Source: Rhodophyticola porphyridii
Lineage (GTDB): Bacteria > Pseudomonadota > Alphaproteobacteria > Rhodobacterales > Rhodobacteraceae
Reading direction: 5' to 3'
NCBI RefSeq assembly: GCF_003688285.1
Contig: NZ_RCNT01000009.1
Span: 62,001-126,000 of the forward strand
Length of the DNA: 64,000 nt
Shown: piece after piece, positions 31,481 to 64,000 of the stretch
Position numbering within the stretch: position 1 is the first letter of the stretch
How the letters are laid out: the number at the start of each line of letters is the position of its first letter
Made by a program: the position numbers and the translations under genes
Notes under the pieces: generated by a model
Database searches by the model: none
What the model saw: the letters and a program-made list of their open reading frames with translations, nothing else
Told to the model about the DNA's origin: nothing

Positions 31481-31503
31481 GGCAGTGTCCTGTCTTGACA
31501 GTA

Positions 31504-31523
31504 TATTATGTGCAGACATAATA
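31504..31523. promoter_or_regulatory. HutC operator between hutF and hutI
   Basis: Eight-base arms TATTATGT and ACATAATA enclose GCAG, a perfect palindrome of 20 bases in the 76-base gap between the hutF and hutI starts. It is shared by the divergent hutF-hutC and hutI-hutU operons and is placed where a GntR-family repressor would block both promoters. The assignment to HutC is inference from position. Confidence 0.75.
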
Positions 31524-31556
31524 AGCCAAGGATGTCGACGAAAACAAGGGCGGATA

Positions 31557-32756
31557 ATGCGGATGCTGCTGACGCGCGCGACCCTGGCGACCATGACAGG
31601 CGATGTGCCCTACGGCCTGATCCCTGATGGCGCGCTGGCCCTCGCGAACGGGCGGATCGAATGGGTCGGCCCGGCGAAGGCGATACCGGAGGTCTATCGG
31701 GGCGGCCCGGTGCACGACCTGGGCGGGCGGCTGGTCACGCCCGGCCTGATCGATTGCCACACCCATCTGGTCTTTGCAGGCAATCGCGCGCGGGAGTTCG
31801 AGATGCGGCTGACCGGGGCAAGCTATGCCGAGCTGGCCAGGGCAGGCGGCGGCATCATGTCCACCGTAGCCGCCACCCGCGCCGCCAGCATGGACGATTT
31901 GCTGGCCGATGCGCTGCCCCGCCTTGATGCGATGATTGCCGAGGGTGTGACTGTGGTCGAGGTGAAATCGGGATATGGTCTGGATCGCGAGACCGAGTTG
32001 AGGATGTTGCGGGCGGCACGCGCGCTGTCGGATCTGCGCGAGATCCGCACCGTCACCAGCTATCTGGGCGCGCATGCGGTCCCGGCGGAGTATCAGGGCC
32101 GGGCGGATGTCTATCTGGACGAGGTCTGCCTGCCGGTGCTGGAGGCCGCGGCCGCCGAAGGGCTGGTCGATGCGGTCGACGGGTTTTGCGAAGGCATCGC
32201 CTTCGACAGCGGCCAGATGGCGCGGGTGTTCGACCGGGCGCAGGCGCTTGGTCTGCCGGTGAAGCTGCACGCCGAGCAATTGTCCCATCAAGGCGGCGCG
32301 GCGCTGGCCGCGCGCTACGGGGCCCTGTCGGCGGACCATCTGGAATACGCGACTGAGGCAGATGCGCGGGTAATGGCCGCGGCAGGCACGGTTGCGGTGC
32401 TGCTGCCGGGTGCGTTTTACACGTTGCGTGAAACGCAGACCCCGCCGGTGGAGATGTTTCGCGATCATGGCGTGCCGATGGCCCTCGCGACGGATGCCAA
32501 TCCGGGCTCGTCGCCCATGGTGTCGCTGCTTCTGGCGATGAATATGGGCTGCACCCTGTTCCGGCTGACCCCCGAGGAGGCGCTGGCCGGCGTTACCCGC
32601 AACGCGGCCCGAGCGCTCGGCATCGCGGATATGGGCGTTCTGGCGCCCGATATGCGGGCCGATCTGGCGGTCTGGAATGTGGAAAACCCCGGAGAGCTGG
32701 CTTACCGGATCGGGGTCAACCGGCTTCACCGGCGTATCGTGGGGGGCAATCTGTGA
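31557..32756 (+). CDS. hutI: imidazolonepropionase
   Basis: A 399-residue metallo-amidohydrolase that opens imidazolone propionate to N-formimidoyl-glutamate. The metal site motif is [20 protein letters not shown], followed by [58 protein letters not shown] and [25 protein letters not shown] lies before ATG 31557 (a second ATG at 31563 is possible). Its stop overlaps the hutH start (GTGA). First gene of the rightward hut operon under the HutC palindrome. Confidence 0.95.
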
Positions 32757-34294
32757 GCGTGGTTCTGACACCTTCCGCCGTCGGCCTTGGCGATCTGGAA
32801 CGGATCTGGCGTGGGCGCGAAGCGGTGGATATCGCGGAAACCGCCCGCGCCCCGGTGGAGGCCGCCGCAAGAATGGTCGAGCAGGCAGCCGAGGGCGACG
32901 CGGCTGTGTACGGCGTCAACACCGGCTTCGGCAAACTGGCCAGCATCAAGATCGCCCCCGAGGATACCGCAACATTGCAGCGCAATCTGGTGTTGTCCCA
33001 CTGCTGCGGCGTGGGCACGCCGCTGGATGCGCCGACAACCCGGCTGATGATGGTGCTGAAACTGTTGTCTCTGGGCCGCGGTGCATCGGGTGTGGCATGG
33101 AGCACGATCGCTCTGATCCGCGATATGGTGAACGCGGGCGTCATTCCGGTGATCCCCGATCAGGGATCCGTCGGGGCATCGGGTGATCTGGCCCCGCTGG
33201 CGCATATGGCCGCCGTGATGATCGGCAGCGGCGAGGCGGTTTTCGACGGGACGCGGATGCCGGGCGCCAAGGCATTGACTGCGGCGGGGCTGCGGCCCGT
33301 GACCCTGCGCGCGAAGGAAGGGCTTGCCCTGATCAACGGCACCCAGTTTTCAACGGCCTGCGCGCTTGTCGGCCTGTTCAAGGCCTGGACCAATGCGGCG
33401 GCGTCGATCGTGACGGGGGCTCTTTCGACCGATGCGATCATGGGCTCCACCGCGCCGATGCTGGCCGAGCTGCACGCGCTGCGCGGCCATGCCGGGCAGA
33501 TTGCGGTGGCCGCGGCGCAGCGGGCGCTTATGGCGGGCTCGGAAATTCGCGAAAGCCATCGCGACGGCGACACACGGGTGCAGGATCCGTACTGCATCCG
33601 CTGCCAGCCTCAGGTCACCGGCGCGGCGCTGGATCTGCTATGGTTCGCGGGCCGAACGCTGGAGATCGAAGCCAATGCCGTGACCGACAACCCACTGATC
33701 CTGCTTGATCAGGGCCGGATCGTGTCGGGCGGAAACTTCCACGCCGAACCCGTGGCGCTGGCCGCGGATCAGATTGCGCTGGCGCTGGCAGAGATTGGCG
33801 CGATCGCGCAGCGGCGTGTCGCGTTGATGGTCGACCCGACGCTCAGCTTCGATCTGCCGGCGTTCCTGACGCCGGCGCCGGGGTTGAATTCCGGCCTGAT
33901 GATCGCCGAGGTGACCACCGCCGCGCTGATGAGCGAGAACAAGCATCTGGCGAACCCCTGTTCCACCGACAGCACGCCGACCTCCGCCAATCAGGAGGAT
34001 CATGTCAGCATGGCCGCCCATGCAGCGCGGCGGCTGGACCGGATGAATGCCAATCTCAACACGATCCTCGGGGTGGAACTGATTTGCGCGGCACAAGGCA
34101 TCGAATTTCGCGCGCCCCTGCGGACCAGCGCGGCTTTGCAGGCGGTGATGGCGAAAACCCGTGCGGTCATCCCGACCATCGGCGAGGACAGGTATCTGGC
34201 CGATGATCTGGCCCGGGCCGCAGCCCTCGTGGCCGAAGGGGTACTGGCCGACGGGGCCGATCTGCCCGGCTATGCGGATCGGGGGCGGGAATGA
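32753..34294 (+). CDS. hutH: histidine ammonia-lyase
   Basis: A 513-residue enzyme deaminating L-histidine to trans-urocanate. The MIO cofactor forms from Ala142-Ser143-Gly144 in [14 protein letters not shown], the same numbering as in Pseudomonas HutH. Also seen are [61 protein letters not shown] and SADNP-type [12 protein letters not shown]. The start is GTG 32753 overlapping the hutI stop by four bases; hutG overlaps its stop (ATGA). First step of the hut pathway. Confidence 0.96.
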
Positions 34295-35085
34295 CGCCGG
34301 TCGAGGTGCTTCGCGGCGGCGGACCGGTTATCCTGGGCATGCCGCATACGGGAACCTGGCTGCCCGATTGCGTCGCCGATGCGCTGAACCCCCGTGGCCG
34401 CGCCCTGTCGGATACGGATTGGCATGTCGATGAGCTTTATCGGGGCCTTCTACCCGATGTCACAACGGTTCGCGCGGTGTTTCACCGTTATGTCGTCGAC
34501 CCAAATCGTGACCCGGCCGGCGGCAGCCTTTATCCCGGGCAGAACACCACCGGGCTGGTGCCGCTGACGGACTTCGACGGGCAGGCGATTTGGGACAGCC
34601 CGCCGGACCAGCCGGAGATCGCCCGGCGCGTTGCCCGGTTCCACGCCGCTTATCATGACGCATTGGCGGCCGAGATCCGGCGGGTAAAGGCGATCCACGG
34701 GGTGGCCATTCTGTACGATTGCCACTCGATCCGCGCGACCGTTCCGCATCTTTTCAGGGGTGTCCTGCCGGATCTCAATATCGGGACCTATGACGGCGTG
34801 TCGGCGGCGCCGCAGGTGGAGGCCGCGGTGGCCGGCATCTGCGCATCCGCCGGGGGGTATTCCAGCGTGGTGAATGGCCGCTTCAAAGGTGGCTGGACCA
34901 CGCGCCATTACGGGCGGCCCCGGCACGGCGTTCATGCGATCCAGATGGAACTGGCCCAATCGACCTATCTGACCGAGGAGGCGCCACCCTGGATCTTCGA
35001 CCGGGACCGGGCCGCCCGGTTGCGCGCTGTCCTGCAAGACATCCTTGAAACCCTGGCCGATCTGGCCCCTAGGCTCAGGAGCTGA
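34291..35085 (+). CDS. hutG: N-formylglutamate deformylase
   Basis: A 264-residue zinc hydrolase of the N-formylglutamate amidohydrolase family that releases formate and L-glutamate in the last step of the hut pathway. Visible features are [80 protein letters not shown] and [13 protein letters not shown]. Its start overlaps hutH by four bases, so assignment to the hut role is strong. A second, distant family member lies at 61624-62415. Confidence 0.95.
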
Positions 35086-35090
35086 CCCCG

Positions 35091-36751
<1,661 letters not shown>

Positions 36752-36755
<4 letters not shown>

Positions 36756-49934: not shown

Positions 49935-50606
49935 CCCGGGTATCGCGTCCTGTCGGGCCCCGAGGCCCGTCTGACCGGTCAAGGCGCGAATCGATGCGGC
50001 AAACGATGTTTCGGGAATCTCGACTGTGACCTGCCGTTAAAATGATTGTCGCGCTTCAGGAAACGAACGAAGACGACGCGGAGCGATGGCCGGAAAAAAG
50101 TTAACGCCTTGCTCGCCTTGGATCGACGGGTTTCCGTTCCCGGGACAGTGTTCGCACGATTGAGGCGCATTACTCGAAAACTTGACTAAAAATCTTTTGA
50201 TTGCAGGGGATTGCCTCTCCGCTTCTTATGTGCGGTTGCGCGCGTGGAAACAATTCGGAGGGGTTACGGCGCTTCCCCGCGGGTATTGTGACCCTCCAAA
50301 TCCAGGCTTCGCAGCGCTTTCCAGGGCACATGTCGAAAAAGGGGGCTTTTCTGGAAACGGTTCCGGTTTTACCCAAGTCTGGTGCGCTTGAGGGTTAGAG
50401 GGACAACTACCGTGGAGCGCATGGCCGGACATCAGAACGGTGCCCGGCGACGGTGCGGTTCCGGGGGCGATACCCCGGCTTGCAACCATATGTGACGAAC
50501 CGGGGCGGCGTGCGCCTCATATAGTGTCGGGCATCTTCGGAGCCTGCGTAAAAGCTCTGTCTGCGGCGTGCGCCCGTGGCCAGAGATGGTAGAAAGTGGG
50601 CTTGGT
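49935..50606. other. 672-base gap upstream of the RTX gene
   Basis: No credible gene is visible; the short open frames on both strands lack an RBS and protein-like composition. The left end has the narR stem-loop. The middle (about 50150-50260) is AT-richer than its surroundings, including TTGACTAAAAATCTTTTGAT near 50182, and may hold the promoter of the RTX gene. The rest is unassigned. Confidence 0.55.
49953..49970 (+). terminator. stem-loop after narR
   Basis: CGGGCC (49954-49959) pairs with GGCCCG (49964-49969) around CCGA, about 20 bases after the narR stop. Flanking T and A bases give one further weak pair. There is no T-run. Confidence 0.5.
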
Positions 50607-53600
50607 ATGAGCGGCAAGAAAGACGGCATCGTCGGCGGGACGAACAGCAGCGATTACATTTCTTCCTATTATACGGATCGAAACGGCGACCGCATCGACG
50701 GGCGCGATGCGATCAGAGGACGTATCGGTTCCAACGACGACAAGGTGATAGCCGGAGACGGCAATGATACGGTCCGCGCGGGCAGTGGCGACGATACGGT
50801 CTATGGCGGGCGCGGCAATGACGATCTCAGGGGCGGGAGTTCGGAGGATTCGCTGATTGGCGGTTCCGGGGACGACCGCATCTATGGCGAAGACGGCAAC
50901 GACGTGCTGAAAGGCGATACGACCGACGCCAATATAACGCCGGGCAGCACCAAAACCGAGATCTTCCGCTGGAGCCAACTGGGATATCGCGACGAGCAGT
51001 CCATCGAAGGTACGACCGTCCATCAGGACACGGGCGACGTAGATGTCTGGGTGTCGACGCCGTCGCGGTCCTCGATCCAGACGGAGTTCGAGAGTCACTC
51101 GATCAATACTGGCGGCATCTCGGGCATTAGCGGCAACTCCAGCCTCGAATCCGATGCGAAGAATGGTGACAATGGCACCTACACGATGACGTTCTCGAAG
51201 GATGTGTCGAACGTTCAGTTCACCATCTCCGATATCGATCAGGACGTGGAGTTCGTCAAAGTTTGGGCGGTGGCCGCCAATGGGAGCCGGGTCGAAGTCG
51301 ATCTGAACCTTGGCAGCAACCTGTATCGATATGGCGATCAGATCAGGGCCTATAACGACAACGATACGACCTCCACCTCAAGCTCCGGCACCGCTGTTGT
51401 GAGCATTGATGGCCCGATCCGCGCGCTCTACATCCAGCATGCCGATGACAATTCAGGCTTCTTCTCGAACTCTAAGATTTTCATTTCGGACGTGAAGTTC
51501 GACCGGATCATCGACGACACATACACCTACAGCACGGCCCGCTCGGGCGATGACACGCTTTATGGCGGCGATGGCAACGACACGGTCTATGGTGACGGTG
51601 GTAACGACCGGCTGTACGGCAACAACCACGACGACAAGCTTTATGGCGGAAGCGGTAACGATACGCTGATCGGAGGCAGCGGGGCCGACCGGGTTTATGG
51701 CGGCAACGACCGCGACGTGATTTTTGGCGCCGATGGCGATTATGTCGACGGCGGGGCGGGCGGCAGCGATTACGATGTGCTCGACCTGACCGGTCAGGGT
51801 CAGTTCTATCTTGCGGGTCCCGACGGAACCGGCCAGCCGATCGCGGATGCCAATGGCAACGGTCTGAACGGCCGGGTCATCTTCGTCGATGCGGATGGCA
51901 AGCCAACCGGCGCGAAGATCGACTTTGTCGAGATCGAAGAGGTGCGTGGCGAGAATGTTGGCACCGGGCCCGATGCAAAAGACGATGCGTTCGGCACGGG
52001 CGAGGATGATGCCGCCGCGGTGCTGGGCAATGTTCTGGGCAATGACAGCAATACGTTGAGCACACCGCTCAGTGTGACGGCCGTGAACGGTGCCGCCGAT
52101 GGCTTGGGCGCCGAGATAGCTGGTAGTGACGGCGGTGTCTTCACCGTCAATGCAGACGGAACCCTGCGGTTTGATCCGAAGGATGATTTCAACGGCCTTG
52201 GCGAGGGAGAGACCGCCACTACCTCAGTCACCTATTCCGTCGAGGACGGGAATGGCGGCACCGATACGGCCACGGTCGTGGTGACGGTCAATGGGGCCAA
52301 CGACAGCCCGGTCGCCGTCGGCAATGCCTATACTGTTGAGAGGAGCGAGGGTGCGGGCGACGTAGACGGCAACGTGCTGACCGATGACACCGGCGCCGGG
52401 GCCGACAGCGACCCCGAAGGCGATGTGTTGAGCGTCGTCGGCGTGGGCGCTCCCGCGGGCAATGTGGGCGCACCTGTTGCGGGCGACAATGGCGGCCTGT
52501 TCACTATCAATGTGGATGGCAGCGTGGATTTCTCCGCCAACGGAGAGTTCGACGGTCTTGGCCTGAACCAGACGGCCACGACCTCCGTCACCTACACCGT
52601 GGCCGATGGGACTGGCGCAACCTCGACCGCGACGGTGAGCTTCACCGTCAAGGGCATCAATAACGGTATCGTCGAAGGCACCGATAGCGCCGACACCATC
52701 GTGCCCGACTACGTCGACAGCGATGGCGACATCGTCGATGGCAACGACGCCATCCTGCCCGGCGATACGGGCGATGACGATCTGATCCGGGGCTTCGGCG
52801 GGAACGACGTGATCGATGCGGGCGCGGGTGATGACCGGGTCGAGGGCGGCACGGGCAACGATACCATTGATGGCAATATCGGAGACGATGCGCTTCAGGG
52901 CGGTTCGGGCGATGACAAGATCACCGGCGGTGAAGGCAGCGACAAGATCGCAGGCGATGACGGCAACGATGTGATCAATGCCGGCAATGACGTGGACCCG
53001 GCCTTCGATACGCCCTATCCGGGCTTTGGCACGCCCGATGCCGACCCGAATGACGACAAGGACACGGTTTTCGGCGGCACGGGCGATGACACGATTACAA
53101 CCGGTGACGATGCCGACAGTATCGATGGCGGCGCGGGCAGCGACCTTATCGACGCCGGGATCGACGATGATACGGTAATCGGCGGCACGGGCGATGACAT
53201 AATTACCGGTGGCGAAGGGTCCGACCTTATCGACGGTGGCGAGGGCCACGATCTGATCTATGGCGGTCTCGACAACGATCTGTTCGACATTCCCGATGAT
53301 CGTGACCTGCTGCCCGACAACAATATCGACACGATTACCGGCGGCGCCGGCAACGATACGATTTTCGGCCGCGATGACGACGATGTGCTGTCCGGCGGCA
53401 CGGGCGACGATCTGATCGATGGCGGCGTCGACGAAGACAGCATCGATGGCGGCGAGGGCGACGACCGGTTGCTTGGCGGACAGGGTGCCGACACGATCAG
53501 CGGCGGCGCGGGTGACGACACGATCACCGGTGGGCAGGATGCCGATCAGCTTTCCGGTGGTCTGGGCAACGATCTGTTCGTCGGCGGCAGCGGCGGCGAC

Positions 53601-54374
53601 CATGTGGTCGGCGGCGAAGACCCGGATCTGGACGGTGACGGCTTTTCCGATGACACCGATGTGCTGGACGTCTCGGGCGAAAACGTGGAGCGGATCGAAT
53701 ACGATCCGGACAATTCCGAAAAGGGGACGGTGTTCTTCGCGGACGGGTCGACCATGACCTTCGAGGAGATCGAGAAGGTCATTCCCTGCTTCACGCCGGG
53801 CACCACCATCATGACCCCGCGCGGCGAACGGCTGGTGGAGGAGTTGCAGGTCGGGGACCGGGTCATCACCCGTGACAACGGCATTCAGAAAATCTCCTGG
53901 GTGGGGCAGAAGGGTCTCGACGGCAACGCCCTTGCAGCCAATCCGCATCTCAGACCGATCCTGATCAGAGCGGGTTCTCTGGGAGGCGACCTGCCCGAAC
54001 GGGACATGCTGGTCAGCCCGAACCACCGGATTCTCATCGCGAATGAGATCGCCGAGGTCCATTTCGACAACCGCGAGGTTCTGGTGGCGGCAAAACACAT
54101 GGTGGGTGCCAATGGCATCAAACAGGTCCCCGTCGCGGAAACGACCTATATCCACTTCATGTTCGAACAGCATCAGGTGGTGTTGTCCAACGGCGCATGG
54201 ACCGAGAGCTTTCAGCCCGGCGCCTACACGTTGAAGGGCATCGACCAGGCTCAGCGGGACGAGATTTTCGAGTTGTTCCCAGAGCTTGCGACGAACGATG
54301 GAGTGTCGGGCTATCATGCGGCGCGCAAAACCCTGAAGGCTTACGAAGCACGTTTCTTGTTGGCAGAGCGCTGA
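50607..54374 (+). CDS. large RTX protein with Ig-like repeats and C-terminal Hint domain
   Basis: A 1255-residue, strongly acidic protein, probably exported by a type I system. It shows RTX calcium repeats (GGxGxDxxx) at residues about 45-110 and 305-400; a non-repeat beta domain at about 112-305; two cadherin/VCBS-like domains at about 452-690 (AKDDAFGTGED, VTYSVEDGNGGTDTA, VTYTVADGTGATSTA); a long RTX block to about 1030; and a Hint_2 domain at about 1055-1205 (IPCFTPGTTIMTPRG with Cys1061, LQVGDRVITRDNG, MLVSPNHRILI). No signal peptide. ATG 50607 is the best start; frames to 50568 lack an RBS. No type I exporter is nearby. Confidence 0.85.
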   Translation: MSGKKDGIVGGTNSSDYISSYYTDRNGDRIDGRDAIRGRIGSNDDKVIAGDGNDTVRAGSGDDTVYGGRGNDDLRGGSSEDSLIGGSGDDRIYGEDGNDVLKGDTTDANITPGSTKTEIFRWSQLGYRDEQSIEGTTVHQDTGDVDVWVSTPSRSSIQTEFESHSINTGGISGISGNSSLESDAKNGDNGTYTMTFSKDVSNVQFTISDIDQDVEFVKVWAVAANGSRVEVDLNLGSNLYRYGDQIRAYNDNDTTSTSSSGTAVVSIDGPIRALYIQHADDNSGFFSNSKIFISDVKFDRIIDDTYTYSTARSGDDTLYGGDGNDTVYGDGGNDRLYGNNHDDKLYGGSGNDTLIGGSGADRVYGGNDRDVIFGADGDYVDGGAGGSDYDVLDLTGQGQFYLAGPDGTGQPIADANGNGLNGRVIFVDADGKPTGAKIDFVEIEEVRGENVGTGPDAKDDAFGTGEDDAAAVLGNVLGNDSNTLSTPLSVTAVNGAADGLGAEIAGSDGGVFTVNADGTLRFDPKDDFNGLGEGETATTSVTYSVEDGNGGTDTATVVVTVNGANDSPVAVGNAYTVERSEGAGDVDGNVLTDDTGAGADSDPEGDVLSVVGVGAPAGNVGAPVAGDNGGLFTINVDGSVDFSANGEFDGLGLNQTATTSVTYTVADGTGATSTATVSFTVKGINNGIVEGTDSADTIVPDYVDSDGDIVDGNDAILPGDTGDDDLIRGFGGNDVIDAGAGDDRVEGGTGNDTIDGNIGDDALQGGSGDDKITGGEGSDKIAGDDGNDVINAGNDVDPAFDTPYPGFGTPDADPNDDKDTVFGGTGDDTITTGDDADSIDGGAGSDLIDAGIDDDTVIGGTGDDIITGGEGSDLIDGGEGHDLIYGGLDNDLFDIPDDRDLLPDNNIDTITGGAGNDTIFGRDDDDVLSGGTGDDLIDGGVDEDSIDGGEGDDRLLGGQGADTISGGAGDDTITGGQDADQLSGGLGNDLFVGGSGGDHVVGGEDPDLDGDGFSDDTDVLDVSGENVERIEYDPDNSEKGTVFFADGSTMTFEEIEKVIPCFTPGTTIMTPRGERLVEELQVGDRVITRDNGIQKISWVGQKGLDGNALAANPHLRPILIRAGSLGGDLPERDMLVSPNHRILIANEIAEVHFDNREVLVAAKHMVGANGIKQVPVAETTYIHFMFEQHQVVLSNGAWTESFQPGAYTLKGIDQAQRDEIFELFPELATNDGVSGYHAARKTLKAYEARFLLAER

Positions 54375-54614: not shown

Positions 54615-55760
54615 TTAGAGGCAGTTCAGCAGCAACTGGCGCGTGTTCTCCGCCGTGAGCGGGATCGGGTTTCCGCCGCAGCTTGGATCCGCTAGCGCCA
54701 ACTCGGTCAGCCTGTCGAGTTTGGTGTCGTCGACGCCGAGTTCGCGCAGGCCGCGCGGGATGTTCAGGCGGTCGTTCATCTGCTGCACGAAAGCGCAGAA
54801 CCCGGCAAACCCGCCCGATATGCCCAGATACGCGGCGGCCATGTCGAAACGCGCCTCTATCGCGGGGGCGTTGAATTCCAGAACGGCGGGCATGCAGACC
54901 GCATTCGTGGTGCCGTGATGGGTGTTATAGATCGCCCCGATCGGATGGCTCAGCGCGTGGATCGCCCCCAATCCCTTCTGAAAGGCCGTGGCACCCATGG
55001 CGGCGGCGCTCATCATGTTGGCGCGGGCCTCAAGATCGGTGCCATCCGCATAGGCTCGTGGCAGGTAGTCCTTGACCAGACGCATGCCCTCGAGAGCGAT
55101 GCCCTGGCTCATCGGGTGGTAATGCGGGCTGCTGAAGGCCTCCACGCAATGGGCGAAGGCATCAAGGCCGGTTCCGGCGGTGATGAAACCGGGCATGCCG
55201 ACAGTCAGTTCCGGGTCGGCAATCACCACGCTCGGCAGCACTTTCGGGTGAAAGATGATCTTCTTCACATGGGTTTCGGAGTTGGTGATGACGCTGGCGC
55301 GCCCGACCTCCGAACCGGTGCCCGCGGTGGTGGGCACGGCCACGATCGGGGCGATGGCGTCGGCGTTGGCGCGGGTCCACCAGTCGCCCACATCCTCGAA
55401 ATCCCATACCGGCCGGGTCTGGCCCGCCATGAAGGCGACCATCTTGCCGAGGTCGAGCCCCGAGCCGCCGCCAAAGGCGATCACGCCGTCATGCGCCCCG
55501 GCCTGGTAGGCCGCGATGCCGGCATCCAGATTCTTCTCGTTCGGGTTCGGGTCGACCTCCGCGAACAGCGCGCGCCCCAGCCCGGCGGCATCTAGGATGT
55601 CCAGCGCGGCGGCCGTGATCGGCAGACCGGAAAGACCCTTGTCGGTTACCAGAAGCGGGTTGGAGATGCCGGCCTGACGGCAGGCCTCAGGCAGTTCGGC
55701 GATACGCCCCGCACCGAATTTGATCGTTGTGGGGTAGGACCAGTTTCCTGTCAGGTTCAT
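54615..55760 (-). CDS. iron-containing alcohol dehydrogenase
   Basis: A 381-residue group III (Fe-dependent) alcohol dehydrogenase, NAD(P)-linked. The nucleotide region is VIAFGGGSGLDLGKMVAFM and VPTTAGTGSEVGRASVI; the metal ligands lie in AGTGLDAFAHCVEAFSSPHY (Asp and His) and IHALSHPIGAIYNTHHGTTN (His, His). It is the last gene of the RpiR-controlled operon and starts two bases after the aldehyde dehydrogenase. With the ligase upstream, oxidation of a gamma-glutamylated amino alcohol to an aldehyde is a fair hypothesis; simple alcohols are the alternative. Confidence 0.92.
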   Translation of the reverse strand: MNLTGNWSYPTTIKFGAGRIAELPEACRQAGISNPLLVTDKGLSGLPITAAALDILDAAGLGRALFAEVDPNPNEKNLDAGIAAYQAGAHDGVIAFGGGSGLDLGKMVAFMAGQTRPVWDFEDVGDWWTRANADAIAPIVAVPTTAGTGSEVGRASVITNSETHVKKIIFHPKVLPSVVIADPELTVGMPGFITAGTGLDAFAHCVEAFSSPHYHPMSQGIALEGMRLVKDYLPRAYADGTDLEARANMMSAAAMGATAFQKGLGAIHALSHPIGAIYNTHHGTTNAVCMPAVLEFNAPAIEARFDMAAAYLGISGGFAGFCAFVQQMNDRLNIPRGLRELGVDDTKLDRLTELALADPSCGGNPIPLTAENTRQLLLNCL

Positions 55761-55761
55761 C

Positions 55762-57144
55762 TCAGGTGACCTTCTTCAGATGGTAGGACTTGGGTCGCGT
55801 CAGGCTGTGGTATCCGATGACCGACAGCCCGCCGCCGCGCCCGGTGTTCTTGCACCCAGTCCAGCAGAGGCCGGGATCGAGGTAATCTGCGCGGTTCATG
55901 AAGACCGTGCCGGTTTCGATCCGGTCGCCCACCCGCACCGCGCGGTCGAGGTCGCGGGTCCAGAGGCTTGCGGTCAGACCGAAGGCGCTGTCATTCATCA
56001 GGGCCACGGCCTCGTCGTCGGAGGTGACTTTCATCACTCCGACGACGGGCCCGAAGCTTTCCTTTCGCATAACGGTCATTGCGTGATCCACGTCGATCAG
56101 GATTTGCGGCGCAAGATAGGCGCCGCCGTCATCGTCGAACCGGGCGGTGTCGATGACCGGGGTCGCACCGCGGGACACGGCCTCGGCAATCTGGTCGCGC
56201 ACGACGTCTGCAAAGCGGCTATGGGCCATCGGCCCGAGTGTCGTGGCAGGGTCGAGCGGATTGCCGAGGACATACGCTTCCACCACTGTCTTCGCCTTTT
56301 CCAGAAAAGTGTCGAACAGGTTTTCATGCACATAGATCCGTTCGATCCCGCAGCAGCATTGGCCTGAATTGAACATCGCCGCGTCGATCAGCGTGTCGAC
56401 CGCCGCGTCAAGATCTGCATCCTCCATGACATAGCCCGGGTCCTTGCCGCCAAGCTCCAGCCCAAGGCCGGTGAAGGTGCCCGCGGCCGCCCGCTCCATC
56501 GCACGCCCGCCGCCGACCGAACCGGTGAAATTGATGAAATCGAACGCGTTTTCCGCGATCAGACCCGCCGTCGTGTCATGATCGAGAAAGACATTGACGA
56601 ACACGTCTTCGGGCAAACCGGCCTCGCGGAAGGCGCGAACCATTCGTTCGCCCACCAGAAGCGACTGTGTGGCGTGTTTCAGAACAACAGTATTACCCGC
56701 GATGAGCGCCGGGGCGACGGTGTTGATGGCCGTCATGTAGGGATAGTTCCACGGCGCTACGACGAAGACGACCCCATGAGCTATGCGCCGGATGTACCGC
56801 TTGAAACCGGCATCCTCGCCCACATCGATATCGCCAAGCGCCGCCTCGGCGATCCCGGCCATGTGGCGCGCGCGTTCGTCAAAGCCGCCGAATTCCCCGC
56901 CATAGCGAACGGGGCGCCCCATCATCCATGCCAGTTCCGGGACGATATCGTCATTCATCGCCCCCACGGCGGCGACGCCCGCCATGACCAGATCGATACG
57001 ATCCTGCAGCGGGCGCGCCGCCCAGGCGGATTGCGCGGCGCGGGTGCGGGCGATACGGGCGCGGGCGGTGTCCATGTCGAGCGTCTCCCGCTCGGCGAAG
57101 ACCGACCCGTCGATGGGCGATATGCAGGTGAGAGTCTTTGTCAT
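55762..57144 (-). CDS. NAD(P)-dependent aldehyde dehydrogenase
   Basis: A 460-residue aldehyde dehydrogenase. Catalytic Cys is in the FNSGQCCCGIERIYV segment (residues 263-265), general base Glu230 in GLGLELGGKDPGYVME, and cofactor segments VVAPWNYPYM and INFTGSVGGGRAM are present. The start at 57144 (TKTLTCISPIDGSVF) is chosen because the protein family begins there; the longer frame to 57201 enters the GS-like gene. It sits between the GS-like ligase and the alcohol dehydrogenase, suiting oxidation of an omega-aldehyde to the acid in a glutamylated intermediate, as PuuC does for putrescine. Confidence 0.92.
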   Translation of the reverse strand: MTKTLTCISPIDGSVFAERETLDMDTARARIARTRAAQSAWAARPLQDRIDLVMAGVAAVGAMNDDIVPELAWMMGRPVRYGGEFGGFDERARHMAGIAEAALGDIDVGEDAGFKRYIRRIAHGVVFVVAPWNYPYMTAINTVAPALIAGNTVVLKHATQSLLVGERMVRAFREAGLPEDVFVNVFLDHDTTAGLIAENAFDFINFTGSVGGGRAMERAAAGTFTGLGLELGGKDPGYVMEDADLDAAVDTLIDAAMFNSGQCCCGIERIYVHENLFDTFLEKAKTVVEAYVLGNPLDPATTLGPMAHSRFADVVRDQIAEAVSRGATPVIDTARFDDDGGAYLAPQILIDVDHAMTVMRKESFGPVVGVMKVTSDDEAVALMNDSAFGLTASLWTRDLDRAVRVGDRIETGTVFMNRADYLDPGLCWTGCKNTGRGGGLSVIGYHSLTRPKSYHLKKVT

Positions 57145-57201
57145 GTTGGCGCTTTCAAACTGGCGTGCGGCTTCCGGGCGGCTCCGATGCGGTGCCTTCA
57201 T

Positions 57202-58563
57202 TCAGGCGCGTTCGAACCCGCGCGCGATCTCGTAATCGGTCACGACACGGTCGAACTCCTCGATCTCCCATTCGGCGGCGCGCACATAATGGTCGACCAC
57301 GTCGTCGCCCAAGGCCTCCCGCAGCATGGCAGAGCGGTGGAGCGCGCTCCGCGCGTCGCGGAGGGTGCCGGGGATATGGCTGAGATCGCCTTCATAGGCA
57401 TCCCCATTGAATGGCGGGCTGAGCGGCAAACCCTGTTCGATGCCCCATATCCCGGCCGACAGCAATGCGGCCATGGCAAGATAGGGGTTCATGTCGGATC
57501 CGCCGATCCGGCACTCGACGCGCACCGAGCCGGTCCCCGCGCCGCAGAGCCGGAAACCCGCGGTGCGATTGTCCACCGACCAAACCGTGCGGGTCGGCGC
57601 GAAAGTTCCCTTCTGGAACCGCTTGTAGCTGTTGATGTAGGGGGCCAGAAAATAGGTGTAGTCACCCGCATGGGCGATCAGCCCGGCCATGTAGCTTTTC
57701 ATCAGGTCCGACATGCCGAGCGCGTCGTTCGGATCGTGGAAGACGTTCTGCCCATCCCTCCAGAGCGATTGATGAACGTGGGAGGAACTGCCGACCTTGT
57801 CATGATGCCATTTCGGCAGAAAGGTCACGGCATGGCCCTGCTGAAAGGCGATTTCCTTGATCGCGTGTTTCGCGATGCTGTGGTGCTCCGCCGTTGCCAT
57901 CGCGGACGCGTATCTGATGTTGATCTCTTCCTGCCCGGTCTCGGCCTCGCCTTTGGAGTTCTCGACGGGAATACCGGCGGCGAACAGGTGATTTCGGATC
58001 GGGCGCATCACATGTTCTTCCTTGGTGGTCTGAAGCATGTGATAATCTTCATTATAGCCTGAAATCGGCTCCAGATCGCGGAATTTCTCCTTGCGGATCT
58101 GGTCGAAGCTTTTCTCGAACAGGAAAAACTCAAGCTCGGTTGCCATCATCGCCTGGTAGCCCATCTCCTCAAGCCGTCTGACCTGTTTTTTCAGAACCGA
58201 GCGCGGGGAATGGGGGACCTCCTCATGGGTGTGGTGATCCAGCACATCGCAAAGCACCATCACCGTGCCATCAAGCCATGGCACCGGCCGCAGCGAGGAC
58301 AGATCGGGCTTCATCACGTAGTCGCCGTAGCCTTTTTCCCAACTGGTGGCGGCATAGCCACCCGGCGTCGCCATCTCCAGATCGGTTGCCAGAAGATAGT
58401 TGCAGCAATGGGTTTCTTCCCAGGCAGAGGCAATGAAATGCGCCGCGTGAAGGCGTTTGCCCATCAGCCGGCCCTGCATATCGACAAGGCAGACCAGCAC
58501 GGTGTCGATATCGCCTGCGGCAACCCGCGATTTCAGATCGTCAAAACTCAAAGGCGCTTGCAT
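57202..58563 (-). CDS. glutamine synthetase-like gamma-glutamyl amide ligase
   Basis: A 453-residue GS-superfamily ligase of the PuuA/GlnT type, with about the length of those proteins. N-terminal beta-grasp: VLVCLVDMQGRLMGKRLHAA. Catalytic domain: MMATELEFFLFEK (metal glutamates), GQEEINIRYASAMATAEHH, WHHDKVGSSSHVHQSLW (metal His), TRTVWSVDNRTAGFRLCG and RVECRIGGSDMNPYLAMAAL. The Tyr adenylylation site of GlnA is not evident. Such enzymes join glutamate to putrescine, isopropylamine, ethanolamine and similar amines. Which amine is used here is unknown. It lies between dctP and the aldehyde dehydrogenase gene. Confidence 0.88.
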   Translation of the reverse strand: MQAPLSFDDLKSRVAAGDIDTVLVCLVDMQGRLMGKRLHAAHFIASAWEETHCCNYLLATDLEMATPGGYAATSWEKGYGDYVMKPDLSSLRPVPWLDGTVMVLCDVLDHHTHEEVPHSPRSVLKKQVRRLEEMGYQAMMATELEFFLFEKSFDQIRKEKFRDLEPISGYNEDYHMLQTTKEEHVMRPIRNHLFAAGIPVENSKGEAETGQEEINIRYASAMATAEHHSIAKHAIKEIAFQQGHAVTFLPKWHHDKVGSSSHVHQSLWRDGQNVFHDPNDALGMSDLMKSYMAGLIAHAGDYTYFLAPYINSYKRFQKGTFAPTRTVWSVDNRTAGFRLCGAGTGSVRVECRIGGSDMNPYLAMAALLSAGIWGIEQGLPLSPPFNGDAYEGDLSHIPGTLRDARSALHRSAMLREALGDDVVDHYVRAAEWEIEEFDRVVTDYEIARGFERA

Positions 58564-58592
58564 GATACGTGTTCCGTTACAGAGGGTTGGGT

Positions 58593-58618
58593 GGCCCCGG
58601 CACCCTGGCGCCGGGGCC
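58593..58618 (-). terminator. perfect stem-loop between dctP and the GS-like gene
   Basis: GGCCCCGGC (58593-58601) and GCCGGGGCC (58610-58618) form a perfect nine-base stem with an eight-base loop in the 61-base gap. It lies right after the dctP stop, where such loops usually stabilise the binding-protein message and attenuate the downstream genes. Confidence 0.6.
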
Positions 58619-58624
58619 GCCGGA

Positions 58625-59659
58625 TCAGGTGTAGCGATAGGGCCGGCCTGCGGCTTCCATATCGGCATTGTACTGGCGGATGATCTCGACCACCCGGGCC
58701 TTGGTGGGCGACTCCGCCGCGATCTCTTCCCAGAAGACCTGGGCCGCGGCTTCCACCTGGGCCCATTCTTCGTCCGGTATCGTGGTCAGTTCGAGGTCTT
58801 CGCCATGGACCCGCAGATGGGCCTCTCCGCCCCAGTACCACCACTGACGGTAGTAGTGCGACTGGTCGGTGCAGACCCGGAACAGGGTTTGCAGATCGTC
58901 GGGCAACTCGTTCCAGCGGTCCATATTGGCAAAGAAAGATCCGGCCCATGCGCCGGAGATGTTGTTGGTCAGGAAATAGTTGGTCACGTTCGACCAGCCG
59001 ACCGTGTAATCCTCGGTGATGCCTGACCACGCGATGCCGTCCAGCTCGCCGGTTTGCACGGCCACCTCAATATCCTCCCATGGCAGCGTCACCGGCACGA
59101 CCCCGAATTGTGTCAGGAAGCGGCCTGCGGTCGGGAAGGTGAAGACCCGCTTGCCCTGCAGATCGGCCAGTGACCGGATCGGCTCGACGGTGGCGAAGTG
59201 GCAGGGATCCCACGCGCCCGCCGAGATATGCTTCACACCCACGGCGGAATAAGCCTCGTCCCAGATCTCATTCAACCCGTACTGGTTGAACAGCACCGGC
59301 ACATCGAGCGAATACCGCGATGCGAAGGGAAAATAGCCGCCGAACACGGTTACCTCGGTTGGCGAGGCCATCGAGTCGTCGTCGGATTGCACGGCATCGA
59401 TCGTGCCCTGCTGCATCGCGCGAAACAGCTCCCCGGTGGGGACAAGCTGATCGGCGTAGAACAGCTCGATCTGCATCCGGTCTCCGGCGATCTTGTTGAA
59501 CATGTCGATCGCAGGCGTGATCACATGCTCGGCCAGGGCGGCGCCTGCATAGGTCTGCATGCGCCAGCGGATGGTGGATTGCGCGATTGCCGGGGCCGCA
59601 AGGGTTGCGGCGGCGGCGCCCACCGTGGTCGTGGTGAGGAACTTGCGTCTGGTGGTCAT
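58625..59659 (-). CDS. dctP: TRAP transporter solute-binding protein
   Basis: A 344-residue periplasmic DctP-family protein that captures the substrate for the DctQM permease. Tat signal peptide: TTRRKFLTTTTVGAAAATLA, then APAIAQ. Mature features: RMQTYAGAALAEHVITPAID, GTIDAVQSDDDSM, FPFASRYSLDVPVLFNQYGL, RVFTFPTAGRFLTQFGVVPV and GELDGIAWSGITEDYTVGWS. The overall shape resembles the TakP/2-keto acid subgroup, but the ligand is unpredictable. Third after the permeases in the leftward operon; followed by a stable hairpin. Confidence 0.9.
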   Translation of the reverse strand: MTTRRKFLTTTTVGAAAATLAAPAIAQSTIRWRMQTYAGAALAEHVITPAIDMFNKIAGDRMQIELFYADQLVPTGELFRAMQQGTIDAVQSDDDSMASPTEVTVFGGYFPFASRYSLDVPVLFNQYGLNEIWDEAYSAVGVKHISAGAWDPCHFATVEPIRSLADLQGKRVFTFPTAGRFLTQFGVVPVTLPWEDIEVAVQTGELDGIAWSGITEDYTVGWSNVTNYFLTNNISGAWAGSFFANMDRWNELPDDLQTLFRVCTDQSHYYRQWWYWGGEAHLRVHGEDLELTTIPDEEWAQVEAAAQVFWEEIAAESPTKARVVEIIRQYNADMEAAGRPYRYT

Positions 59660-59709
59660 TGGTTTTCTCCTTGTTGAATATCGCGCCCCGGTTCACGGGA
59701 TCTGTCGAT

Positions 59710-61035
59710 TTATTGGCCGTATACATATCCGGGCAGCCACAGTGCGATCTGCGGAAAGACCATCACGAGGGTCAGCGCCAGCGCCATTACGAGCACGAAG
59801 GGAATGATCGAGCGATAGATGTCGCCAAGGCTGATCTCGGGTGGGGCCATCGCACGCATCAGGAACAGGTTGTAGCCGAATGGCGGTGTCATGTAGGCGA
59901 TCTGCGTCGTGATCGTGTAAAGCACGCCATACCAGATCAGGTCGAAACCAAGCTCGCCCACCAACGGCACATAGAGCGGCGCCACGATCACCAGCATGGC
60001 CGTGTCGTCCAGAAACGTGCCCATTATGATGAAGCTGAGCTGCATCAGGATCAGGATCGTCCAGGGGCTCAGATGCAGCTGTTCGGTAAAGAGTGCATCA
60101 ATGGCCCGAACCGCGCCGAGCCCGTCGAAAACGGCGCCAAATCCAGTCGCGGCAAGGATGATCCACATGAACATGCAGGAAATCATCAGTGTCTTGCGGA
60201 CCGAGTTTTCGAAAACCTCCCGCGTCATGCGCCCCTTGACCACGGCCACCAGAAAGGCTGTCGTCGCCCCCACGGCGGCGCTTTCGACCAGCGATGTCCA
60301 GCCATTCACGAAAGGCACCATCATCGCGGCAAAGATGCCAAGCGGCAGCAGGCCGGCGCGCAGAAGCCGGAGCTTTTCGGCCAGTGTGACCTTGCTCAGT
60401 TCCTCCTTGTCGATCGGCGGGCCCAGATCGGGCTGCATCCGGCAGCGGACATAGATGTAGAGGATGAACATGCCCGCCATCATCAGCCCCGGAAGTACAC
60501 CGGCGAGCCAGAGTTGCCCCACCGGCTGCCGGGCGATCAGCGCATAGAGCACCAGCACGACCGAGGGCGGCACCAGAATGCCAAGCGACGATCCGGCCTG
60601 GATCACGCCGGTGACCATGATCTTGTCATAGCCCCGGCGCAGCAGTTCGGGCAGGGCGATGGTCGTGCCGATCGCCATGCCGGCTACGCTCAGCCCATTC
60701 ATCGCCGAGACCAGCACCATCAGGCCGATGGTGCCGATCGCCAGCCCGCCGTTCAGCGGCCCCATCCAGACATGGAACATCCGGTAAAGATCGTCGGCGA
60801 TCCGGCTTTCGCTGAGGACATAGCCCATGAAGATGAACATCGGCAGCGTCAGCAGCACATACCATTGCATCAGTTTCATGGCCGAGGAGAACGGGATTTC
60901 GACGCCACCCGTTCCCCAGAGTAGAACACTCGACAAGGCCGCTACGAAACCGATCGCGGCAAAGACCCGCTGCCCGGTGAACAGCATCAGCATCATCGAG
61001 GCGAACATGAGCGTGGCGATCATCTCGTAGGACAT
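59710..61035 (-). CDS. dctM: TRAP transporter large permease
   Basis: A 441-residue DctM-family ion-transporter subunit with about 12 hydrophobic segments (for instance ATLMFASMMLMLFTGQRVFA, PMFIFMGYVLSESRIADDLY, and GIVAP-like LGILVPPSVVLVLYALIARQ). FLDDTAMLVIVAPLYVPLV is a helix-turn near the substrate path. The start ATG at 61035 shares its A with the dctQ stop (TGATG), so the two are translationally coupled. It forms the sodium-dependent importer with DctQ and DctP. Confidence 0.93.
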   Translation of the reverse strand: MSYEMIATLMFASMMLMLFTGQRVFAAIGFVAALSSVLLWGTGGVEIPFSSAMKLMQWYVLLTLPMFIFMGYVLSESRIADDLYRMFHVWMGPLNGGLAIGTIGLMVLVSAMNGLSVAGMAIGTTIALPELLRRGYDKIMVTGVIQAGSSLGILVPPSVVLVLYALIARQPVGQLWLAGVLPGLMMAGMFILYIYVRCRMQPDLGPPIDKEELSKVTLAEKLRLLRAGLLPLGIFAAMMVPFVNGWTSLVESAAVGATTAFLVAVVKGRMTREVFENSVRKTLMISCMFMWIILAATGFGAVFDGLGAVRAIDALFTEQLHLSPWTILILMQLSFIIMGTFLDDTAMLVIVAPLYVPLVGELGFDLIWYGVLYTITTQIAYMTPPFGYNLFLMRAMAPPEISLGDIYRSIIPFVLVMALALTLVMVFPQIALWLPGYVYGQ

Positions 61036-61631
61036 CAGAGCGCCACCCCGCGAATGCGGCCGATATCGCGGAAGAACTCGGCCAGCGCCTGCAACAGCAT
61101 CAGGAAGACACCGATGCAAAGCGTGACCTTGATGGGCCAGAGATAAGGGCGCCAGGCCGTCGGGCTGCGCTCCAGAAAGCCGAGCATCTCGGCCGCGGCA
61201 CCCGGCCCGCCGGTCACGAAGGCGACCAGCAGATCCCGGAAGAAACCGAACGGCTCGGTGCCGAAATAGCCAAGAGAGTAAGCGGTGGAACTGATCGCGC
61301 CGGTGAAAAGGACGCCCAGGTAGAAGATCAGGAACATCACCGTGAACGCATCGACCCAGGCCTTGGTACGCAGCGACCAGTTGCCGTAGAACAGATCCAT
61401 CCGGACGTTCGCGCCAAGCTGTACGGAATAGGGGCCGCCGAGCACATAATAGGCGACCATCACGAATTGCGCCGTCTCCAACGTCCAGTGTACGGGGGTG
61501 AAGAACGTCTTGGAGATCGAACTCCAGAGCAGGATGCCCGCCAGCACGAAAATCAGATACATCGCGATCCGTCCGATAAACCGGTTCATGCTGTCGATGG
61601 CTCGGATATAGGCCAGGATGATCCTAGGCAT
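61035..61631 (-). CDS. dctQ: TRAP transporter small permease
   Basis: A 198-residue DctQ-type subunit with four hydrophobic segments, starting IDSMNRFIGRIAMYLIFVLA. WTLETAQFVMVAYYVLGGPY and VRMDLFYGNWSLRTKAWVDA match the family. It overlaps the upstream amidohydrolase gene by eight bases and dctM by one base. It is a larger-than-average DctQ, with a C-terminal amphipathic helix and membrane segment (WPIKVTLCIGVFLMLLQALA). Confidence 0.9.
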   Translation of the reverse strand: MPRIILAYIRAIDSMNRFIGRIAMYLIFVLAGILLWSSISKTFFTPVHWTLETAQFVMVAYYVLGGPYSVQLGANVRMDLFYGNWSLRTKAWVDAFTVMFLIFYLGVLFTGAISSTAYSLGYFGTEPFGFFRDLLVAFVTGGPGAAAEMLGFLERSPTAWRPYLWPIKVTLCIGVFLMLLQALAEFFRDIGRIRGVAL

Positions 61632-62415
61632 GGGGCGGCCCCCCTGCTTGCACTCCCACCTCTGTCAGGGCCGGGGCCAGGATGCTGTGAAGCTCCGCAG
61701 CGATCCGGTGCTGTTCCGCCGGGGTGCCAATCAGGTCATTGCGGATTTCGATCATGACATTGGGCAGCGATCGGGCCATTCCGTGCAGCTTGAGCGAATG
61801 GGTCACCCCGTCCTCGGGGCCATAGGGGTCGTTGCGGCCGATCTTGCGATGTGGCAGCGACGCCGCCCGCTCAAGCACCGCATCGGCAAGCCGCGCGTCG
61901 GCGTCATGCACGATGCCGATATCGACATCGCGGGGTCGGCCGTGGAAAACGGGCGCGAAACTGTGCACCGTGACCAGCGCCGTGTCGGTTCCGGCCTGCT
62001 GCCTGCGGTCAAGCACGGTGCCCACCGCTGCCAGAAAAGGGCGGTAGATCGACTGCTCGCGCGCCAATCTGTCTTCGGGCGTCAGGTTGCGATTGCCGGG
62101 TATGTCGATGGCTTCGGACCGGTCGGGCATCGCGGAGGCGGCCTCCGGCGGACGATTGCAGTCATAGACAAGACGCGACACCCGCCCGGCCACCAGCGGC
62201 GCATCAAAGAGGTCGGACAGGTTCAAGGCCACGCCAATCGCGCCCGGATCCCACGCCGCGTGGCTATGCCGGGATGCTTTGGCAAGGCCAAGGTCCTGAA
62301 ATTGCGCGGGGATATGGTGGGATGCATGTTCACACAGCAGCACCACGGGCCCGGACCGCGTCGGGTTGAAGGTTTCGACAACCTTGTCTTGTTCTGTTTC
62401 GACGAGGGCGGACAT
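61624..62415 (-). CDS. N-formylglutamate amidohydrolase-family protein
   Basis: A 263-residue zinc hydrolase of the N-formylglutamate amidohydrolase family, distant from HutG at 34291-35085. Features are VVLLCEHASHHIPAQFQDLG, WDPGAIGVALNLSDLFDAPL, VSRLVYDCNRPPEA, VTVHSFAPVFHGRPRDVDIG and SLPNVMIEIRNDLIGTPAEQ. It is the first gene of the seven-gene operon, overlaps dctQ by eight bases and is divergent from rpiR. In place of PuuD it could release the product from a gamma-glutamyl amide, or it could cleave an N-acyl amino acid. Both are inference. ATG 62415 is preferred to the longer frame. Confidence 0.88.
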   Translation of the reverse strand: MSALVETEQDKVVETFNPTRSGPVVLLCEHASHHIPAQFQDLGLAKASRHSHAAWDPGAIGVALNLSDLFDAPLVAGRVSRLVYDCNRPPEAASAMPDRSEAIDIPGNRNLTPEDRLAREQSIYRPFLAAVGTVLDRRQQAGTDTALVTVHSFAPVFHGRPRDVDIGIVHDADARLADAVLERAASLPHRKIGRNDPYGPEDGVTHSLKLHGMARSLPNVMIEIRNDLIGTPAEQHRIAAELHSILAPALTEVGVQAGGPPHA

Positions 62416-62533
62416 GGAGGATTCCCGGCAACTGGAAAAATCTTTCCTCACCAATATCTTTGTGTCAATATATTTTCAGTCGTGATCGGGCGGGCCGGGC
62501 AGAGCATCTTGGACCGGGGCAGTTTGCCTGAGA
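62416..62533. promoter_or_regulatory. divergent promoter region, NFGD operon / rpiR
   Basis: The 118-base gap is AT-rich in its left half. Imperfect arms CTGGAAAAATCTT (62432-62444) and AATATATTTTCAG (62467-62479) are near-inverted and may hold the RpiR-family site. No clear -35/-10 pair can be picked by eye. Confidence 0.4.
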
Positions 62534-63433
62534 ATGCAGCAGAGAAAGGATGACGGATCGGTGCCGAAACCCGATGTTACAGTGCGTGAACGGATCCGCG
62601 AGCAATATGCATCGCTGACGCAATCGGAACGAAAATTCGCCAAGGCGCTGCTTGAAAACTACCCGTCTGGCGGGCTGGCCTCGATCACCGCCGTGGCGGA
62701 AAACGCAGGCGTTTCAACGCCAACGGTCACGCGAATGGTTCAGAAGCTGGGCTTCAAGGGGTTTCCGCAGTTCCACAAGGCGCTTCTGCGCGAGCTTGAG
62801 GCGCGCGCCTCGGGCCCGACGCAACGCCGCGCCAACTGGGCGGCTGCCGCGCCGGATTCCCATATTCTGAATCGCTTCGCGGAAGCGGTGACCCACAACC
62901 TTGAACAGACATTCGCCAATGTGGATCTGGGCCAGTTCGATCAGGCGGTCGACATGCTGTCGGATACCGATGGTCGGCTGTATGTGGTGGGCGGGCGTAT
63001 CACGCGGGCCCTGGCCGATTATTCCTTCACCCATTTTCAGGCCATTCGAAAACGCGTCACCCATATGACCTCGTCTTCGGCCACATGGCCGCATTACGTT
63101 CTGGATATGGAGCCCGGCGACACGTTGCTTGTCTTCGACGTCCGCCGTTACGAGACAAATATCGAGCGTCTGGCCGAATTGGTGGCGCCGCGCGATGTGA
63201 ACATTATCCTGATCACCGATCAGTGGGCTTCGCCCGTGTCGAAAACGGCGAAACTCGTCTTCAATTGCTGGGCCGAAATCCCTTCCGCATGGGACAGCAA
63301 CATCGCAACGATGATGCTTGTGGAGGCCCTGATTGCCGCGACGCAGGAAAACTGCTGGCCCGACACGAAGAAGCGGTTCGACAAGCTGGACGAACTGTTC
63401 GACATGACGCGGCTGTTTCGGAAGTTCAGTTGA
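62534..63433 (+). CDS. RpiR-family transcriptional regulator
   Basis: A 299-residue regulator with an N-terminal helix-turn-helix of the RpiR type (LTQSERKFAKALLENYPSGG, VAENAGVSTPTVTRMVQKLG, FKGFPQFHKALLREL) and a C-terminal SIS domain (VVGGRITRALADYSFTHFQA, DTLLVFDVRRYETNIERLAE, VNIILITDQWASPV). SIS domains normally bind phosphosugars; here the ligand is unknown. ATG 62534 is used; GTG 62561, preceded by AAAGGA, is an alternative start. It is divergent from the seven-gene operon and is its likely local regulator. Confidence 0.9.
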   Translation: MQQRKDDGSVPKPDVTVRERIREQYASLTQSERKFAKALLENYPSGGLASITAVAENAGVSTPTVTRMVQKLGFKGFPQFHKALLRELEARASGPTQRRANWAAAAPDSHILNRFAEAVTHNLEQTFANVDLGQFDQAVDMLSDTDGRLYVVGGRITRALADYSFTHFQAIRKRVTHMTSSSATWPHYVLDMEPGDTLLVFDVRRYETNIERLAELVAPRDVNIILITDQWASPVSKTAKLVFNCWAEIPSAWDSNIATMMLVEALIAATQENCWPDTKKRFDKLDELFDMTRLFRKFS

Positions 63434-63552: not shown

Positions 63553-64000
63553 TCAGGCCTCGTCGGGTGATTTCGGCAGGCGGGGAAGCGCCCGTGTCAT
63601 GTCGCCAAACGCGTCCGTATCCTCCGCGCCCTCCTTGCGCATCCCGAACAGCTGCAGGATCAGGCCGCCCCTGGCATCAAATGCCTCGATGCTGAGAGCG
63701 GGCCCGCGTTTCGTGGGCTTTTCCACCAGCCATGTCTCGGCAACATGATCGAGCCGCAGATGCAGGTTGAATCGTGAATCAAGCACGTTTTGCCATGGCC
63801 CCATTGCTTTCAGCGTCTCGATGCCGCCGCTGTGGATCTGAATGCAGCCCCGATTTCCGACAAAAACCATGACCGGTATGGCGCCTTCGGAACACGCGAT
63901 CAGCGCGTTGTTCAGTGCGCCGGGGGCCAGCGCTTCGGCAAAGGGCGCGCCCGCGATGTGATAGGCACCAAGCCGGTTCATCTTCATCCTGGACACGAGG
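63553..64000 (-). CDS. hmuS: hemin-degrading factor, 3' part
   Basis: The C-terminal 149 codons of an HmuS/ChuS-type heme protein. AYHIAGAPFAEALAPGALNN, VPVMVFVGNRGCIQIHSGGI (partly), MGPWQNVLDSRFNLHLRLDH and VAETWLVEKPTKRG match the second heme-binding repeat of the family; the tail is acidic. The reading frame is open to the window edge, so the gene continues beyond 64000. The GTG at 63996 is not a start. Family members bind or degrade heme taken up by Hmu transporters, whose genes should lie to the right. Confidence 0.85.
   Translation of the reverse strand, partial: LVSRMKMNRLGAYHIAGAPFAEALAPGALNNALIACSEGAIPVMVFVGNRGCIQIHSGGIETLKAMGPWQNVLDSRFNLHLRLDHVAETWLVEKPTKRGPALSIEAFDARGGLILQLFGMRKEGAEDTDAFGDMTRALPRLPKSPDEA

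Follow-up and report, generated by a model that had tools for sequence, protein, structure and literature searches.

Ethanolamine from membrane phospholipids serves as a source of nitrogen and carbon in the sea (Westermann et al., 2023; PMC10132767), and the part of the same study dealing with Phaeobacter sp. MED193 sets out a row of genes that reads RpiR, GGAH (gamma-glutamylglycine amidohydrolase), EtoV, EtoW, EtoX, ETAGA (ethanolamine gamma-glutamylase), GAADDH and GETADH, the last two positions being those of the aldehyde and the alcohol dehydrogenase. The MED193 EtoX binds ethanolamine with a measured dissociation constant (Kd) of 7.9 uM, and proteomics found five of the proteins (GGAH, EtoX, the ligase and the aldehyde and alcohol dehydrogenases) to be raised by phosphorylethanolamine (PMC10132767). 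The genes are presented there, with reference to Vetting et al. (2015), as close relatives of a pathway "demonstrated" in Chromohalobacter salexigens and Agrobacterium tumefaciens. In Streptomyces coelicolor, the same chemistry has been proposed, in which the gamma-glutamylethanolamide synthetase GlnA4 is joined by two dehydrogenases and a hydrolase of the formylglutamate amidohydrolase family; GlnA4 was tested, and the later steps are predicted (PMC6529630). Here we consider a stretch of 64,000 nucleotides from Rhodophyticola porphyridii (contig NZ_RCNT01000009.1, positions 62,001 to 126,000; hereafter the window), belonging to an assembly of 3.84 Mb in 22 contigs, in which eight adjacent genes constitute, as we hold with confidence, a complete operon of the eto type, by which this member of the Rhodobacterales would use ethanolamine. 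The locus is another copy of a system already known from marine bacteria, not a new one; the operon is one marine route for ethanolamine, of which the window contributes a further clear example.

The gene set and order of an eto-type operon, RpiR / GGAH-EtoV-EtoW-EtoX-ligase-aldehyde dehydrogenase-alcohol dehydrogenase, were found in the window, where EtoV, EtoW and EtoX correspond to the DctQ, DctM and DctP components of a tripartite ATP-independent periplasmic (TRAP) transporter. All eight genes, their order and the divergent RpiR gene are common to the window and MED193, with no difference in gene content found. In the record "Roseobacter sp. MED193" (L069 in our numbering of loci), tblastn located all eight, ordered and oriented as in the window, at the protein identities listed in Table 1. 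The MED193 DctM aligns over 502 columns as against 441 residues in the window, reflecting either some 60 additional residues or an oddity of assembly; DctM identity is also lowered in loci L064, L093 and L097. The likeness to S. coelicolor lies in the proposed chemistry, whereas the regulator there is EpuRI (PMC6529630).

This arrangement is widely kept. At least 594 stretches were matched, 580 were confirmed, and the best 80 loci were analysed for gene presence by tblastn (E 1e-15). The full eight-gene order, strands included, is retained in 64 of these 80 best loci, so the arrangement goes beyond chance, and the conserved co-occurrence in other genomes that a preliminary description of the locus had proposed as a check is indeed observed. 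Nine of the 16 incomplete loci are, by our reading, cut short by a contig end at the place of the missing genes. Among the 80, the closest named locus is that of Boseongicola sp. H5, whose genus belongs to the order Rhodobacterales and whose DctP is 100% identical. Of 61 genomes sampled from the host's family, its own included, 34 encode an EtoX-like protein (E 1e-80 or better), and an EtoX-like gene is present on 17 plasmid records (E 1e-30), NC_008688.1 and NZ_CP081107.1 among them. Both of the plasmid records that were inspected, from Paracoccus denitrificans PD1222 and Ruegeria sp. B32, carry the operon, and for this reason it may be mobile between replicons.

Among the sequences of the PDB, the window DctP has one outstanding relative, the protein of entries 4uab and 4xf5 (E=4.1e-189, with the next sequence at 1e-17), and it is identical to 4uab at 263 of 319 aligned residues. 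Entry 4UAB is Csal_0678 of C. salexigens, solved with ethanolamine that is held by the platform residue Glu220 (PMC12410723), and Csal_0678 lacks the carboxylate-binding Arg usual in TRAP proteins (PMC4646407). Sequence search and alignment place the window DctP with this Csal_0678/EtoX kind: it has F173 at the column of the carboxylate Arg (aligned to R in 4yzz), and its E216, within ITEDY, is likely the counterpart of Glu220, going by chain index 217 and by the presence of only this one Glu nearby. F173 and E216 are invariant in all 80 close DctP relatives. The preliminary description had listed ethanolamine as one guess among several amino alcohols; it is the best supported of them, and we consider ethanolamine the likely substrate and glycine and glutamate the likely products.

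The likeness to C. salexigens extends to the glutamine synthetase (GS)-like ligase, whose closest solved relatives are 5dm3 (E=1.5e-237), which we take to be a protein of that organism, and 11zs (1.5e-174). When aligned with the GlnA of its own genome, the window ligase is found to be without the Asp of the DGSS motif and to carry a Phe (GTFAP) in place of the Glu found in the GFEAP of GlnA; in GlnA, that Asp and the flap Glu are ammonia-site residues. The likely housekeeping GlnA is encoded on another contig (C18), as the best-scoring match in the genome and with the motif MFDGSS. The window ligase was itself rejected as a GlnA, scoring 241.2 bits against a TIGR00653 cut-off of 429.15. Elsewhere in the genome, two more GS-like ligase genes lie close together (contig C2:143166-146254), possibly as part of another gamma-glutamylation route.

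The hydrolase of the operon belongs to the N-formylglutamate amidohydrolase (NFGD; Pfam FGase) family, and as HutG it was rejected, with 18.7 bits (open reading frame 61624-62454) against the NCBIfam TIGR02017 cut-off of 278.75. A genuine HutG, at 338.9 bits against the same cut-off, is encoded in the window at 34291-35085, within a hut (histidine degradation) cluster of HutI, HutH, HutG and HutU at 31416-36755, and the operon enzyme is therefore free for another role, with the hut cluster as a useful control; matches to the FGase family in the genome number four in total. A structural model of the operon enzyme, built from 35 sequences (predicted local distance difference test, pLDDT, 94.3), superposes on five chains of 2odf with template modelling (TM) scores of 0.89-0.91 by query length and 0.93-0.96 by target length. 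The 2odf protein, Atu2144 of Agrobacterium, shares the NFGD fold and 52-53% identity with the window enzyme, and its PDB name is only "gene product Atu2144" or hypothetical protein. A more distant but still clear match is 2q7s, an N-formylglutamate amidohydrolase from Ralstonia, two chains of which give TM scores of 0.62-0.68. Weaker matches of the model (E ~0.0007-0.01, query TM ~0.3-0.4) to aminopeptidases, an aspartoacylase, Csd4, carboxypeptidase A and MpaA suggest a metallopeptidase-like fold and carry no weight for the substrate. Among the residues that do not vary across the 35 sequences are C28 E29 H30 A31, D56, N87 R88, H151, N195, E223 and D227, a pattern that would fit a conserved metal-hydrolase site.

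Gene content, order and homology were observed directly, and the chemistry of the steps would be that of the published homologues. Ethanolamine would be imported by EtoX (DctP) together with EtoV/EtoW (DctQM), and the GS-like ligase would join it to glutamate at the expense of ATP, yielding gamma-glutamylethanolamide. The iron-containing alcohol dehydrogenase would then oxidise the alcohol to the aldehyde, the aldehyde dehydrogenase would convert this to gamma-glutamylglycine, and the NFGD-fold metallo-amidohydrolase would release glutamate and glycine, the whole probably being controlled by RpiR from the shared intergenic region. The genome encodes glycine decarboxylase, able to use the glycine formed. 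The Eut (ethanolamine ammonia-lyase) pathway was considered and set aside: EutB had 0 matches in the genome at E 0.001, under conditions in which the E. coli control was detected. In outline, then, the mechanism of the preliminary description (TRAP uptake of an amino alcohol, capping by the GS-like enzyme, two oxidations and release by the NFGD enzyme) agrees with the sequence evidence and is most likely right. Its claim of novelty, for the pathway and for the NFGD role, fails because both had already been described: operon, substrate and NFGD assignment are in print (PMC10132767, PMC6529630, PMC9397018), the gamma-glutamylglycine amidohydrolase role of an NFGD-fold enzyme being predicted for Streptomyces in PMC6529630 and tabulated in PMC9397018; a literature search on this enzyme also listed PMC11356490.

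Several points weigh against this reading of the locus. The residue-level evidence gathered here does not single out ethanolamine over close analogues, and 4xf5, the second structure of the Csal_0678 solute-binding protein, presumably holds an alaninol-type ligand. Seven of the 80 loci (L050, L059, L066, L071, L079, L112 and L115) have no match for at least one gene although the contig continues, and L110, a contig-end locus, has no RpiR match across 4 kb upstream. In the passages of the literature that bear on the pathway, support for the enzyme steps, and most of all for the hydrolase step, comes from prediction or citation: the MED193 section of PMC10132767 gives EtoX binding and proteomics and no enzyme assays, a figure legend of that paper terms the MED193 pathway "predicted", and the C. 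salexigens pathway that it calls demonstrated is an in silico prediction according to PMC6529630. The MED193 EtoX, moreover, was raised in the no-phosphate control too (PMC10132767).

The same genes could instead serve some other small amino alcohol (alaninol, serinol, propanolamine) or several such compounds, with gamma-glutamyl-alanine or a similar compound as the product instead of gamma-glutamylglycine; a pair of alcohol and aldehyde dehydrogenases would suit any primary amino alcohol, and one solute-binding protein sequence does have two PDB entries, 4uab and 4xf5. We judge this improbable, since DctP is 87% identical to an EtoX measured with ethanolamine, the operon concerned is raised on phosphorylethanolamine, and E216 and F173 are unchanged throughout the 80 close relatives. 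That the operon is instead a Puu/Ipu-like gamma-glutamyl route for an amine that carries no alcohol group, such as putrescine or isopropylamine, we consider very improbable: the ligase shares the GS-like fold with gamma-glutamylputrescine synthetase, but as PuuA it reaches 203.9 bits against a cut-off of 650 and the aldehyde dehydrogenase as PuuC 213.8 against 850, both far under, while an alcohol dehydrogenase stands in place of an amine oxidase and the solute-binding protein is of the ethanolamine type. Equally improbable is a GS-like gene that serves to make glutamine or to regulate, in an operon whose imported and oxidised substrate would be an unrelated hydroxy-acid, for although the DctP, iron-containing alcohol dehydrogenase and aldehyde dehydrogenase families are often tied to hydroxy-acids, and the best NCBIfam match of the alcohol dehydrogenase is 4-hydroxybutyrate dehydrogenase (355.9 bits, under its cut-off of 500), the genome has a separate GlnA, the window ligase is without the GlnA acids, and DctP is without the carboxylate Arg.

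The layout of the eto-type operon is that given in the preliminary description, which had placed the eight genes here, seven of them as a single operon read leftward and RpiR divergent from it, and had written their order correctly, as open reading frame positions and Pfam matches confirm. In a profile search of the longest open reading frames, the top family was above the Pfam gathering cut-off for all eight proteins. The starts of Aldedh, Gln-synt_C, DctM and FGase were trimmed to an internal ATG of the longest open reading frame and are thus chosen, predicted starts; on translation, the trimmed frames read through without stops. With these starts, the genes are separated by gaps of 1, 57, 61 and 50 bases or overlap by 1 base (DctQ/DctM) and 8 bases (NFGD/DctQ).

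Table 1. Features of the eto-type operon and its regulator gene, in window positions; percentages are protein identities to the MED193 locus.
Feature	Position	Strand	Evidence
Fe-ADH, iron-containing alcohol dehydrogenase; predicted gamma-glutamylethanolamide dehydrogenase	54615..55760	-	Pfam Fe-ADH; 80% to MED193
Aldedh, aldehyde dehydrogenase; predicted oxidiser of the gamma-glutamylated aldehyde	55762..57144	-	Pfam Aldedh; 79% to MED193
GS-like ligase (Gln-synt_C); putative ethanolamine gamma-glutamylase / gamma-glutamylethanolamide synthetase	57202..58563	-	5dm3 E=1.5e-237; 77% to MED193; without the DGSS Asp and flap Glu of GlnA
DctP (EtoX), TRAP solute-binding protein, ethanolamine-binding type	58625..59659	-	4uab E=4.1e-189; 87% to MED193 EtoX locus
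DctM (EtoW), TRAP large permease	59710..61035	-	Pfam; 63% to MED193 over a 502-column alignment
DctQ (EtoV), TRAP small permease	61035..61631	-	Pfam; 71% to MED193
NFGD-family hydrolase (Pfam FGase); predicted gamma-glutamylglycine amidohydrolase (GGAH)	61624..62415	-	Pfam; 58% to MED193; model matches 2odf
Promoter/operator-like stretch (GAAA..TTGACA..GAAA..TTT), putative function	62436..62477	-	Pattern conserved upstream of operon
RpiR/MurR-family regulator (HTH_6 + SIS), divergent; counterpart of MED193 RpiR	62534..63433	+	Pfam; 75% to MED193 locus L069

The region between the RpiR gene and the operon contains GAAA, TTGACA (62463-62468) and GAAA..TTT at near-fixed spacing. This pattern occurs in 23 of the 29 intergenic regions that adjoin an RpiR of 60% identity or more (the window included), as against 6 of 45 others, and its count in mononucleotide shuffles was 0. 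The pattern was drawn by eye from these same, related sequences and, having been defined after they were viewed, is descriptive and a lead only; the stretch at 62436-62477 looks like a promoter with candidate regulator sites. Across 62390-62560 there are direct repeats in three 10-base copies, and the repeat search found no inverted repeat there with a length of at least 7 bases. One may speculate that the cassette admits small primary amino alcohols in general, not ethanolamine alone, with an NFGD enzyme that would accept gamma-glutamyl amides whether of glycine, of alanine or of serine, and an RpiR that would bind 62436-62477 as a twin-site element and sense an intermediate of the pathway, a proposal that we think unlikely.

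EtoX-type TRAP genes also occur with no ligase and dehydrogenases within 7 kb downstream, in L050 (4214-10835), L066, L071 and L115. A second ethanolamine pathway was not seen among the neighbouring open reading frames scanned at these loci (five each at L050, L066 and L115, three at L071). Just downstream of the TRAP genes, L050 has a gene of the trimethylamine-methyltransferase family and a phosphatidylserine decarboxylase gene. In the window itself, the operon is flanked directly downstream (50568-54374) by the gene for a large protein that combines RTX calcium-binding repeats and cadherin-like domains with a Hint domain at its C terminus, and beyond the RpiR gene (63553-63996) by that for a HemS/ChuX-type haem-utilisation protein.

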